A DNA stretch of 64,000 bases from contig NZ_JBGUAW010000005.1 in assembly GCF_041821045.1 (NCBI RefSeq), positions 1-64,000 of the forward strand. The letters run 5' to 3'. Made by a program: the position numbers and the translations under genes. Below are positions 14,414-37,254 of the stretch, piece by piece; the first letter of the stretch is position 1; each line of letters begins with the position of its first letter. A model generated the notes under the pieces. The model searched no databases and was not told where the DNA came from. It saw only the letters and a list, made by a program, of their open reading frames with translations. The stretch comes from Thiohalorhabdus sp. Cl-TMA (GTDB lineage Bacteria; Pseudomonadota; Gammaproteobacteria; Thiohalorhabdales; Thiohalorhabdaceae).

Positions 14414-14628
14414 GCCGCGATCGGTGTCGGGGTATCCGGAACGGGCAGGGGGGACGCCGGGCTCACGCGGCGCGGGCCCGCCTTCCCGCCCATGCCTGAG
14501 CGGCTTTCTTGATCCTTATCGATAACCCTTCTTTCCCCACCGAACAATCGGATGCTACTTCTGTCTGTATCGCCCGGAGATTCGGCTCCGTCAGGAGGCG
14601 TGGCCGGACGGCTGGGCCGGTAAATGTC

Positions 14629-19552: not shown

Positions 19553-19566
19553 TTGACGGGCATCAA
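19553..19566 (+). promoter_or_regulatory. FNR/DNR-type binding site upstream of nnrS
   Basis: The 14-base palindrome reads TTGAC-GGGC-ATCAA, one mismatch from the FNR/DNR consensus TTGAT-N4-ATCAA. It lies 74 bases before the nnrS start in the dnaQ-nnrS gap. NnrS genes are commonly under FNR/NNR-type control in denitrifiers. No strong -10 is visible at the class II distance, so the promoter is less certain than the site. Confidence 0.55.
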
Positions 19567-19640: not shown

Positions 19641-20864
19641 ATGGCTGTTTCCGCAGATGCCCGCGGCAACCGCGCCGTCCTCCTCCGCGAGCCCTACCGT
19701 CTATTCTTTCCCGGCGCCGCCCTCTATGCCCTCGCCGTCATGGCGGGCTGGGCGCTTTGGCTGCTGTATCTGGGCGGCTTGGGTCCGGGCGTTCCCATCC
19801 CGGCGATCCCCCCCGGCTGGCTTCACGGCCATACCCAGGTCTGGGGGGTGCTGCAGCTCTTCATTTTTGGCTTCATCCTCACTGCCCTGCCGCGCCAGTG
19901 CCGCCATCCGAACGAGGTGCCGCCCCGGCGCTGGGTCGGTCTCATTGCGCTGTTCCTGCTGGCACAGGCGGGGATCTGGATAGGCGGACTCGGTGGCTGG
20001 GTGGCCCTGGCTATCGGGGCGGGATGTCTGGGTGCCCTCCTGATGCTGGGGACCGCGGCGGGCCTGGCGCGCTGGCTGCCGGACGCCGGCAATCCGCACC
20101 AGCCCCGCTACGCCTTGGCCGCTCTGGCGATATCGGGCGGTGCCGCCCTGCTGGACGCTTTGGCCTGGGGCCTCAGCGCACCGGGCCTGCACGACTGGGC
20201 GATCCGGGCGGGGCTGTACGCGGAGATGGGGCTGGCCCTGGCCCTCTCCCATCGCCTAGTGCCCATGTTCGCCCGCAACGCGATCCCCGGATATCAGGGC
20301 TCTCAGGGGCCCCGCTTCCTGCCCGTGCTGGCTGCCGGGATCGGGGTGCGGCTGGTGCTGGCGGCGTCTCCCGGGTCGGGTGCGGCACTGGCGGGCGGCG
20401 CGGTGGACGTGCTTCTGGCCGGCTGGGTGCTCCGCGAGCTCCTGCGCTGGTCCCCGGCCACGGCGGTGCACCGGTGGCTGGTAGGCGCCAAGCTGGTCCC
20501 GATGGCCTGGTTCGTGGTCGGCCTGGCGCTGAGCGGGGCCGTTGCCCTGGGAGCAAGCTGGCCCGACGCGGGCCGCGCCTGGGTCCACGCCGTGGGCCTG
20601 GGCGGTATGGCCTCGCTCGCCCTGGTGTTCAGCATGCGGGTAAGCCTCGGTCACGCCGGTCGCGCCCTGGACCCGGACCGAGCCCTGCGCGTGGCCTTCT
20701 GGCTGCTTCAGGGGAGCGTGCTCCTGCGCTTGCTCCTGCCCCTCTGGACGCCGGAGGGGCAGGGCGGCATGATGACAGCAACCCATTGGGCCGCCTGGCT
20801 GTGGCTGGCGGCCTTCGCCATCTGGCTGGTGCGGCTGCTGCCGCGCATGGCCGAGCACTCGTGA
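19641..20864 (+). CDS. nnrS: NnrS-family membrane protein
   Basis: A 407-residue polytopic membrane protein with roughly twelve hydrophobic segments. Family signatures visible are LREPYRLFFPGAALYA, HGHTQVWGVLQLFIFGFILTALPR (with conserved His) and LSHRLVPMFARNAIPGY. NnrS is a haem- and copper-containing membrane protein linked to nitric oxide and nitrosative-stress metabolism in denitrifiers. An FNR/DNR-type box lies upstream. The HybE-like gene follows after 23 bases. Confidence 0.88.
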   Translation: MAVSADARGNRAVLLREPYRLFFPGAALYALAVMAGWALWLLYLGGLGPGVPIPAIPPGWLHGHTQVWGVLQLFIFGFILTALPRQCRHPNEVPPRRWVGLIALFLLAQAGIWIGGLGGWVALAIGAGCLGALLMLGTAAGLARWLPDAGNPHQPRYALAALAISGGAALLDALAWGLSAPGLHDWAIRAGLYAEMGLALALSHRLVPMFARNAIPGYQGSQGPRFLPVLAAGIGVRLVLAASPGSGAALAGGAVDVLLAGWVLRELLRWSPATAVHRWLVGAKLVPMAWFVVGLALSGAVALGASWPDAGRAWVHAVGLGGMASLALVFSMRVSLGHAGRALDPDRALRVAFWLLQGSVLLRLLLPLWTPEGQGGMMTATHWAAWLWLAAFAIWLVRLLPRMAEHS

Positions 20865-33007: not shown

Positions 33008-33413
33008 CCGGGATGCTTTCTTAGTTGGGTCGTGGGGGTGGACCCGCTCCCCCGAGGGCTGGAGCGCATTCGCAGAGATCCGGCTCCAGCATGACCTGTA
33101 GGGGGTTCCCTTTCCGCCCGTAGAATACTAGGTCTTCCGCGCCGAAGGCTAGAGGGCTGTGGATGCCCGCCGGTACCCGGTCCGCTCCCCTTCCATGGTC
33201 GCCTGCAGGCTGTCCAGCGGCCTCTTCCGGGGGCTGCGAAGATTTCCTCCGGCCGATGGCTTTCTCCATTCCCGGTCGAATGGGAGAAAGATCCCCGAAT
33301 CCGGGAGCCGTTTTTTCCTGGAAGACGGGTGCCCTTTTGATCGGGATCATTCTTTATAAGGAGGCGCTGAAGTACTATCGGGAGCGTGCCCAAGACCTTG
33401 TCAGGAGCCCGCC
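33008..33413. other. Intergenic region upstream of the cytochrome gene
   Basis: About 400 bases, divergent between the EAL-HDOD and cytochrome genes. No supported gene. It contains the FNR-type box and promoter described separately, and presumably the EAL-HDOD promoter. Confidence 0.5.
33337..33350 (+). promoter_or_regulatory. FNR/Anr-type box at class II position
   Basis: TTGAT-CGGG-ATCAT has one mismatch from the FNR/Anr consensus TTGAT-N4-ATCAA. Its centre (33343.5) lies 29.5 bases before a TACTAT -10 (33373-33378), exactly the spacing of a class II FNR-activated promoter with the site at -41.5. The cytochrome gene starts about 36 bases downstream. Strong sequence support for oxygen-limited activation. 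Confidence 0.75.
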
Positions 33414-34466
33414 GTGCTTAAGCGCTGTATCCTCCTCCACTGCCTGTTCTTCGCGCTCTTCGGTTCCGGGCCGGTCCAGGCCGAACCCACGAATTCCCCC
33501 AGCGGCAAGCAGCTTTTCAGGGAGCATTGTGCCACCTGCCACGGGCCGTCGGGTCGGGGCGGGATCGGATTGCCCCTGCATCTGGAGGACTTCCTCCGCA
33601 TCGCCGACCGGCAATACCTGATGGAGACCATCAAGCACGGCCGGCCCGGCCGGGTCATGCCCGGATTCGCACATCTCCTGACGCGGACCGAGCGGGGGCG
33701 GATCGCGGATTTCATCGAGGGATGGCAGAAAGGCCCGGAGGCGGAGCTGCCTGAAGTCGGAGAAGGGAGCGCCGACCACGGTGCCGAGCTGTTCGAGCGG
33801 AACTGCGCCGGATGCCACGGCTACAAGGGGCAGGGAGGCACCCAGCCCAAGGCCGCGCCGGGTCATATTACGGGCAAGAAGGCCGTGGTGCCGCCGGCGC
33901 TGAACAACTCCGGCTTCCTGGCGGCGGCCAGCGATGCCTTCATCAAGGCGACCATGCTGCGTGGCCGGGAGGGCACGCCCATGCGGGCCTATGGCGGAGC
34001 GGAGGAGCTTACCGACCAGCAGATGAACGATCTGGTGGCCTACATCCGTAGCTGGGGCCAGGGGGTGGACCCGCTCGCCAAGCCGGTAATCGAGGTGCGC
34101 TCCGATCTGCCCATGGACGAGCTCATCCCCATGCTCAAGATGTCCATCAACAGCCACAACTTCGTTTTCATCCGGCAGCAGACCCTCTACGAGGGTCTGC
34201 CGCCCGCGGCGAAAAAGCCCGACAGCCCCGTCCATATCCTGCAATTCTGCAGCTTCGGACTCCTCGACAAGGCGCTGAAGGTGGATGAGCGGGTGGGTGC
34301 CTTCCTGCCCTGCCAGATCAGCGTCTACCGGGAGGGCGGACGGACGGTCATGAGCGCCATCAATCCCAAGGCCCTGTCCCCGCTTTTCCATAAGCCGGAG
34401 CTGGAGCTGTTCTGCTCCCTGGTAAGCGAAAAATATCTCCGGATTATGCAGGAGGCGAACTTCTGA
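33414..34466 (+). CDS. Di-haem c-type cytochrome fused to a DUF302 domain
   Basis: A 350-residue secreted protein. Residues 1-23 are a signal peptide. Two cytochrome c domains follow, with CATCH at 39-43 and CAGCH at 131-135; VMPGFAH and TPMRAYGG would supply axial Met. The C-terminal 125 residues form a DUF302-type domain (LYEGLPPA..., LLPCQISVY-like FLPCQISVYREGG, SAINPKAL). It starts with GTG six bases after AGGAG and is preceded by an FNR-type promoter. It probably carries electrons in the periplasm under low oxygen; the DUF302 role is unknown. It overlaps the next DUF302 gene. Confidence 0.85.
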   Translation: MLKRCILLHCLFFALFGSGPVQAEPTNSPSGKQLFREHCATCHGPSGRGGIGLPLHLEDFLRIADRQYLMETIKHGRPGRVMPGFAHLLTRTERGRIADFIEGWQKGPEAELPEVGEGSADHGAELFERNCAGCHGYKGQGGTQPKAAPGHITGKKAVVPPALNNSGFLAAASDAFIKATMLRGREGTPMRAYGGAEELTDQQMNDLVAYIRSWGQGVDPLAKPVIEVRSDLPMDELIPMLKMSINSHNFVFIRQQTLYEGLPPAAKKPDSPVHILQFCSFGLLDKALKVDERVGAFLPCQISVYREGGRTVMSAINPKALSPLFHKPELELFCSLVSEKYLRIMQEANF

Positions 34467-34951
34467 TGGCGGCGCGCATCCTGACCGTACTGGCATTGCT
34501 TTTGACCGTTTCCCAGGCCGGGGCCGACCAGGCCCGCTCAAACTTCCTGGAGCGGGAGATCCCGGGCGCCCATGTGGGGCTGGTGCTCAACCACATCCAG
34601 GCCGCCATCCATGAAGCGGGCTTCACTTTCACGCGGATCCAGAACGTGGACCAGGGGCTGGCGGCCAAGGGATTCGACCGACCTCCCTACAAGATCGTTT
34701 TCTTCGGCGATCGGAAGGCCTTCGAGGAGGCACGCCGGATCGACCCCCGCGTCATTCCGTACCTGCCGCTCAAGATCACCATCTACGAGGGCGATGAAGG
34801 CGACACGCACCTCTCGGTCGTAAACCCGACGGTGGTGGGGCGGATGTTCAACCCCGGGCTTCAGGAGCAATTCCGGAACTGGTCCCGGGACATTTCCCGC
34901 ATCCTGGATCAAACCGTACAAGAGGTCCGCGGCCGCACCTTCTCCCCCTAG
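34466..34951 (+). CDS. Secreted DUF302-family protein
   Basis: A 161-residue protein with a signal peptide (cut after AGA-D) and one DUF302 domain: NVDQGLAAKGFDRPPYKIVFFGD, RVIPYLPLKITIYEGD, HLSVVNPTVVGRMF. Its start codon overlaps the cytochrome stop (TGATG), and the two proteins share DUF302, so they are probably a functional pair in the periplasm. It lacks the PC dipeptide of the cytochrome copy. DUF302 function is unknown. Confidence 0.85.
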   Translation: MAARILTVLALLLTVSQAGADQARSNFLEREIPGAHVGLVLNHIQAAIHEAGFTFTRIQNVDQGLAAKGFDRPPYKIVFFGDRKAFEEARRIDPRVIPYLPLKITIYEGDEGDTHLSVVNPTVVGRMFNPGLQEQFRNWSRDISRILDQTVQEVRGRTFSP

Positions 34952-35949: not shown

Positions 35950-36357
35950 GTGATCCAGCAGAAGCCTTTTGCCAAGATGCTCGGTCTCGTTTTCGGTGGT
36001 GCACTGATTCTGGCGGGCTGCGCCGGGCAGGACGGCACCAAGATGGGGATGGCGGAGAAGGCCGAGCAGGCCGTCGCGAAGGCCGAGACCGCCGTGGAGA
36101 AAACCCGCACCGAAACCGATGGCTGGGGCCTGTGGAAGAGCACCAAGAAAATCCTGGGCAATGCCCGGGCCAGCCTGGAAAAGGGTGATTACAAGGCCGC
36201 CCTCGACGCTGCACGCCAGGCCCGCTTTCAAGCCAACAAAGGACTGGCCCAGTATCGCGAGGAGCAGGACCAGTTCCAGGTCGCCGCGAAGACCGCCAGC
36301 AATAGCGGCAATTTCAACGAAGCCAGCTGGGTCTCCGGCAAAACTTCCGGTGAGTGA
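35950..36357 (+). CDS. Lipoprotein, paralogue of the next gene
   Basis: A 135-residue lipoprotein: signal peptide with lipobox LAGC near residue 24, then an Ala/Lys/Glu-rich helical region and a WGLWKSTKKILGNARASLEKGDYKAA segment shared with the next gene. The helical repeat resembles a short TPR-like or coiled-coil unit. GTG 35950 follows AAGGAG. Most likely anchored to the outer membrane. No family recognised. Confidence 0.75.
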   Translation: MIQQKPFAKMLGLVFGGALILAGCAGQDGTKMGMAEKAEQAVAKAETAVEKTRTETDGWGLWKSTKKILGNARASLEKGDYKAALDAARQARFQANKGLAQYREEQDQFQVAAKTASNSGNFNEASWVSGKTSGE

Positions 36358-36400: not shown

Positions 36401-36459
36401 GATAGGGTCATCGGCAACGCCGATTCCTAGAAACCACTCAGCGAGGAGTGTGCGGGCTT

Positions 36460-37254
36460 ATGATCCGAGCGAACCGACTCCTGTATTTGGGCGGGATGGT
36501 GCTGGGGGCCTCCTTGGCCCTGGGTGGCTGCGCCTCCCAGCCAACCGAGGAAGCGCCTGCGGAGCAGGCCGAGATGAGCATGCAGGAAAAGGCTGCCCAG
36601 GCCGTTTCCGAGGCCGAAGCTGCGGTCAAGAAGACCCAGCAGGAAACGGATGATTGGGGGCTTTGGAAAAGCACTCTCGGTATCCTGAACAATGCCAAGA
36701 ACAGCCTGGAGCAGGGTGACTACCAGGCGGCCATCGACGCGGCGGAGCAGGCCAAGTTCCAGGCCGAGAAGGGGCTCGAGCAGTACCAAGAAGAGCAGGA
36801 AGAGTACAAGAAGGCCGAGGAAGCGGCCAAGCAGCGCGGCGATTTCCCCGAGGAGGAATGGGTCGGCGCCGCCAAGGCCGGCCAGCAGGACGCCAGCCGG
36901 GACCGGGAAGGTGGTGATCGTATGGCCGGGGAGCGCAAATCCGTGGCCAACGGCACGCTGATCATCCAGTCCGATGACCAGGGCTTGTACAAGGTGGGCC
37001 GGGGAGACACGCTGTGGGATGTCGCATCCGCGGACGCCATCTACGGCAACCCCTTTGCCTGGCCCCTGATCTACAAGTTCAACAGCGGCAAGATCAACGA
37101 TCCGGACCTGATCTTCCCGAGCCAGGAATTCGAGATCATGTGGAATGTGGATTCCGCCGCCTTCAACGCTGCGGTGCGCCACGCCAAGACCCGTGGCTCC
37201 TGGCGCCTGGGTGAGCCCGAGGCCTCCGACCTGGAGTATCTGGAGCAGAATTAG
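36460..37254 (+). CDS. Lipoprotein with LysM domain
   Basis: A 264-residue lipoprotein with lipobox LGGC. Residues after the lipobox copy the preceding gene (WGLWKSTLGILNNAKNSLEQGDYQAA), followed by a Glu-rich helix, then a LysM domain (LYKVGRGDTLWDVAS to IFPSQEF, about 175-225) that should bind peptidoglycan. The gene pair looks like a tandem duplication in which one copy gained a LysM. The ATG at 36460 follows GAGGAG. A terminator follows. Confidence 0.82.
   Translation: MIRANRLLYLGGMVLGASLALGGCASQPTEEAPAEQAEMSMQEKAAQAVSEAEAAVKKTQQETDDWGLWKSTLGILNNAKNSLEQGDYQAAIDAAEQAKFQAEKGLEQYQEEQEEYKKAEEAAKQRGDFPEEEWVGAAKAGQQDASRDREGGDRMAGERKSVANGTLIIQSDDQGLYKVGRGDTLWDVASADAIYGNPFAWPLIYKFNSGKINDPDLIFPSQEFEIMWNVDSAAFNAAVRHAKTRGSWRLGEPEASDLEYLEQN

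Follow-up and report, generated by a model that had tools for sequence, protein, structure and literature searches.

Overall organization of the operon and its upstream region

The window, which is the whole stretch of 64,000 nucleotides of Thiohalorhabdus sp. Cl-TMA DNA analyzed here, contains on its forward strand an operon of two genes encoding exported DUF302 proteins, the first of which is fused to a di-haem cytochrome c. The features of the operon and of the region upstream of it were as follows.

33337..33350, forward strand: FNR-family box TTGATCGGGATCAT, centre at 33343.5, assigned from the sequence and from its recurrence upstream of relatives
33350..33355, forward strand: -35 position at 17-bp spacing, TTCTTT, 2/6 matches, no usable -35
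33373..33378, forward strand: -10-like hexamer TACTAT, 4/6 matches, its first base 29.5 bases downstream of the box centre
33385..33385, forward strand: predicted transcription start (+1), placed from the -10 spacing
33403..33407, forward strand: Shine-Dalgarno-like AGGAG ahead of the GTG start, found by inspection
33414..34466, forward strand: gene for the exported 350-aa fusion of a di-haem cytochrome c with DUF302, GTG start
34466..34951, forward strand: second gene of the operon, for an exported DUF302 protein of 161 aa, with an ATGA overlap with the first gene

The initial annotation had described an FNR-family box with one mismatch before the cytochrome-DUF302 gene and a distance of 29.5 bases between the centre of this box and TACTAT. 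We found the box at 33337-33350, where TTGATCGGGATCAT differs from the palindromic consensus TTGATNNNNATCAA by one mismatch, and the distance was confirmed (33343.5 versus 33373-33378). When the -10 hexamer was taken as -12 to -7, the start fell at approximately 33385 and the box centre at -41.5; the start codon of the gene was located 70 bases downstream of the box centre. The spacer of this box, CGGG, was unlike the spacer preferred in the cytochrome-DUF302 family. A plain sigma-70 promoter scan reported no promoter in the 33337-33378 region, as would be expected of a promoter that depends on an activator.

Structural features of the gene products

Both gene products exceeded the Pfam cut-off for DUF302. 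The fused protein contained two CxxCH motifs (C39/C42/H43 and C131/C134/H135), and both motifs, together with M82 and M190, were invariant in 42 sequences, a pattern that is consistent with His/Met haems. The AlphaFold2 model of the fused protein, for which 42 family members were used, showed a mean pLDDT of 84. Foldseek matched the C-terminal part of the model to the DUF302 structure 1q9u, with a TM of 0.88 by target length, and the N-terminal part to the di-haem cytochromes of the bcc complex and of the c4 type and, more weakly, to TsdA. The DUF302 domain of the fusion contained three conserved cysteines (C279 in 38/42, C300 in 35/42 and C334 in 37/42 sequences). These features suggest that the fused protein carries electrons and that its DUF302 domain bears thiols. 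The partner DUF302 protein in the window was found without the first two of these cysteines (C279 and C300).

Recurrence of the box upstream of related genes

An 80-locus search of named genomes revealed relatives in Thiobacillus, Sulfuriferula, Sulfuricella, Thiohalophilus, Thiogranum, Acidiferrobacteraceae and, beyond these, numerous Gammaproteobacteria. The DUF302 partner gene was located directly downstream in most relatives; in 11 cases, the downstream gene had been miscalled on the strand antisense to the DUF302 gene. Apart from this partner, no neighbours kept in most relatives were found, and those recurring in some relatives are presumably cyaA-like, a methyltransferase, pyrC, rsmI and hemN. 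We also observed that the hemN-like gene located 3' of the operon in some relatives (L104:5545-6963 and L107:5525-6943) was preceded by a separate box, TTGATCCAGGTCAA, at 38-39 bases from its start.

The 250 bp ahead of the gene were scanned in 78 relatives. The best box was perfect in 8 relatives, had one mismatch in 19 and had two mismatches in 13, whereas shuffled upstream regions yielded 0, 0.77 and 8.35, respectively. Thiohalophilus thiocyanatoxydans, which has been cultured, bears a perfect box. A box with at most one mismatch preceded the gene in 27/78 relatives, as compared with 15/300 control genes of the same loci (Fisher p 5e-11), and upon collapse at 75% protein identity the box was kept in 19-20 of 52 clusters. 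In 51/78 relatives, such a box was absent from the 250 bp upstream; in some of the relatives lacking it, transcription of the operon may originate at a more distant upstream gene. The box centres were mostly positioned 58-90 bases ahead of the start codon, and the consensus of the family box was TTGAT-[AC]T[AG]N-RTCAA. The -10 hexamers peaked at two distances from the box centre, 28.5 and 29.5 bases, with 11 at each as compared with about 0.9 expected, and with 7 and 7 of 28 after near-identical sequences were collapsed. Because the sites were chosen without using the -10, this peak, which has the class II spacing, represents an independent test. The box-bearing promoters of the relatives also contained poor -35 elements.

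The switch is very probably real, since the same box at the same promoter distance precedes the operon in many distantly related, often sulfur-oxidizing, bacteria. The initial annotation had read the box as a class II activator site at -41.5, and this reading is supported by the recurrence of the box, its position and the -10 spacing upstream of the same gene in Gamma- and Betaproteobacteria. It had further named the lack of any FNR-family regulator as grounds for rejection, and we found that the genome encodes an FNR, an FNR-like paralogue and a DNR homologue.

We consider it likely that 33337-33378 is the core of a class II activator-dependent sigma-70 promoter, which is activated by FNR at low oxygen and from which both genes are co-transcribed. 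When oxygen is scarce, FNR would retain its [4Fe-4S] cluster and dimerise, and the dimer would bind to TTGATCGGGATCAT, centred at approximately -41.5. The bound FNR would then recruit RNA polymerase to a weak -10 without a usable -35, and one transcript would cover the cytochrome-cytochrome-DUF302 gene and the DUF302 gene that follows. The sequences and their comparison show the box at this spacing, its repeated occurrence ahead of genes of the family and an FNR that has the cysteines; from these we infer that FNR binds and activates, where transcription starts and that the operon responds to oxygen. The operon is predicted to be switched on when oxygen runs out.

Distribution of FNR-family boxes in the genome

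The whole genome contained 52 boxes with at most one mismatch, four of which were perfect. Control spacings yielded 14 (N5), 28 (N6) and 59 (N7) sites, versus 52 for N4. A genome-wide enrichment of the raw box count, apparent against N5 and N6, was gone against the codon-phase-matched N7 and was rejected; since the N7 spacing preserves the codon phase, the box count in coding regions is background. Among the 50 boxes classified with a simple gene caller, 22 were intergenic, where shuffling of the intergenic sequence in a 400-kb sample predicts about 4.2, and the excess of boxes is confined to intergenic and perfect sites. A -10 with at least 4/6 matches was found within 1 base of the class II spacing for three boxes (0.37 expected), which were located before the SAM synthetase gene, before nrdJ and at 33337.

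In addition to nrdJ, other boxes in the genome preceded norCB (assigned on the basis of a COX1-family match and the adjoining small cytochrome c), nnrS, a truncated-haemoglobin cluster and a nitronate monooxygenase/hemerythrin-like pair. As boxes lie before norCB, nnrS and similar genes, an FNR/DNR regulon is probably active in the genome. The nnrS gene, which is a usual member of NO-responsive regulons, is located in the window (19641-20864, PF05940), with the box TTGACGGGCATCAA (19553-19566, forward strand) 81 bases ahead of its start. The third box of the window, TTGATCCTTATCGA (14509-14522, forward strand), lies approximately 250 bases ahead of a response-regulator/PAS/GGDEF gene (from 14767) and may be a chance match.

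Candidate regulators of the operon

The FNR encoded in the genome (locus L016) scored 251 bits with NCBIfam NF008365, for which the cut-off is 228. Upon alignment with Aliivibrio FNR (5cvr), its four cluster cysteines, three N-terminal and one internal, were found to correspond, and its recognition helix was ETVSR (E-x-x-S-R). A CRP-like protein is also encoded in the genome.

We compared the presence of regulators over 50 genomes of relatives. FNR was present in 22/24 box-bearing and 17/26 box-less genomes (p 0.04), which is a weak association that includes incomplete assemblies and a statistic that ignores kinship. DNR was present in 17/24 box-bearing versus 18/26 box-less genomes and NirS in 15/24 versus 12/26, and these counts gave no support to the proposal that the presence of the box goes with denitrification (NirS) or with DNR. 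Six box-bearing genomes contained FNR and no DNR match, and several Thiobacillus and Hydrogenophilales genomes had neither the box nor an FNR match. Because FNR is usual in box-bearing genomes and six of these have the box and FNR with no DNR match, FNR appears to be the best single candidate and would be the simplest common regulator.

The motifs of FNR and DNR are indistinguishable (PMC2908626), and DNR-type regulators bind the same sequence; therefore, NO and low O2 are both conceivable signals. It is conceivable, although unlikely, that the box is real and mainly used by the NO-responsive DNR, in which case the operon would answer to nitric oxide or denitrification and not to oxygen itself. 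The DNR homologue of the genome, which among solved structures is closest to Pseudomonas DNR (E 1e-37), the binding of DNR to the FNR consensus (PMC1274295, PMC2908626) and the further boxes before norCB and nnrS argue for this explanation, whereas the failure of the box to track DNR or NirS, the six genomes described above and the finding of no full-length NirS in the own genome argue against it.

We regard as improbable that FNR binds the box and represses the operon, or that control lies mainly with the FNR-like paralogue (L018), whose oxygen sensitivity would differ. L018 contains an N-terminal cysteine motif, and several FNR proteins of differing oxygen sensitivity occur in one genome in Pseudomonas putida, as outlined in PMC4505428. 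However, the class II position and the missing -35 point to activation, and L018, with 149.5 bits, falls under the NCBIfam FNR cut-off of 228. With activation by FNR as the preferred reading, the operon adds a new member, whose product is uncharacterized, to the FNR/DNR regulon.

Absence of the box in a congener

The congener G001 contained both the gene (77% identity in the alignment) and FNR (77%), and no box was found upstream of its gene, even at two mismatches. By inspection, its upstream region (L020:1300-1450) contained TACTGT approximately 38 bases before the start, near the place of TACTAT, as part of a TTGCCC-N17-TACTGT pair. Judging from this one sequence, the gene in G001 may now be driven by a promoter that needs no activator, which would represent a change in regulation within one genus. 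The missing box in G001 counts against the universality of the control.

In dinucleotide shuffles, a box with at most one mismatch occurred in the 406-bp intergenic region with P = 0.0035, and the box taken by itself is only moderately unlikely by chance. A further reading, in which the 33337 box arose by chance or is what remains of a decayed site and the promoter is elsewhere, would agree with this 0.35% of shuffles, with the congener, with the weak -10 in the window and with the roughly 4 of 22 intergenic boxes expected by chance genome-wide, but it is very unlikely, as the distances of the box to the start codon and to the -10 are exactly those of the family mode and would rarely be matched by chance.

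Comparison with known systems

Most FNR-activated promoters in E. coli have the box at -41.5 +/- 4 (PMC3688515). The promoter described here is similar to the class II promoters of E. coli narG, dmsA and nirB (PMC3688515) in its box, the centre at approximately -41.5, the weak or absent -35 and the sigma-70 -10; it differs from them in the target gene, and its start and activation are predicted from sequence. It shares the DNA motif with the DNR regulon of denitrifying Proteobacteria (PMC1274295), and nor and nnrS boxes are also found in this genome. Unlike that regulon, the box of the cytochrome-DUF302 family does not track the presence of DNR or NirS.

DUF302 has been linked to sox clusters (PMC5037610, PMC5248467), and in Acidithiobacillia and Thiohalorhabdus a DUF302 gene is located between soxA and soxB (PMC5037610). 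Both that protein and the one described here are DUF302 proteins of sulfur oxidizers; in contrast, the present protein is fused to two cytochrome c domains, is paired with a second DUF302 protein and is encoded outside any sox cluster. In Bradyrhizobium, the DUF302 protein blr5777, which is encoded beside ccoG/fixG, is listed as changed under microoxia (PMC6515984). Both cases tie a DUF302 protein to microoxia, the tie being a predicted one for the operon described here, whereas blr5777 is a stand-alone DUF302 protein beside an oxidase cluster with no cytochrome fusion. Among the openly accessible papers found on DUF302, we saw no description of FNR control of a cytochrome-DUF302 operon and no link to the cytochrome-DUF302 fusion.

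The regulatory principle is textbook knowledge, and only the target operon is new. The proposed control would tie a widespread, uncharacterized cytochrome-DUF302 operon to low-oxygen or anaerobic respiration, and the value of the finding is a physiological condition under which the function of the operon can be sought. As a tentative proposal, the cytochrome-DUF302/DUF302 pair might be both an unrecognized core member of the FNR regulon in many sulfur-oxidizing and related Proteobacteria and a periplasmic electron carrier, in which the three-cysteine DUF302 domain would handle a sulfur or redox substrate and the electrons would pass via the two His/Met haems to a low-oxygen or nitrate chain.

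Elsewhere in the window, we observed two adjacent lipoprotein-like genes on the forward strand (35950-36357 and 36448-37254), for which no Pfam match was found. Their products contain the similar stretches DDWGLWKSTLGILNNAK and DGWGLWKSTKKILGNAR, and the pair is apparently a tandem duplication in which the second copy is longer.
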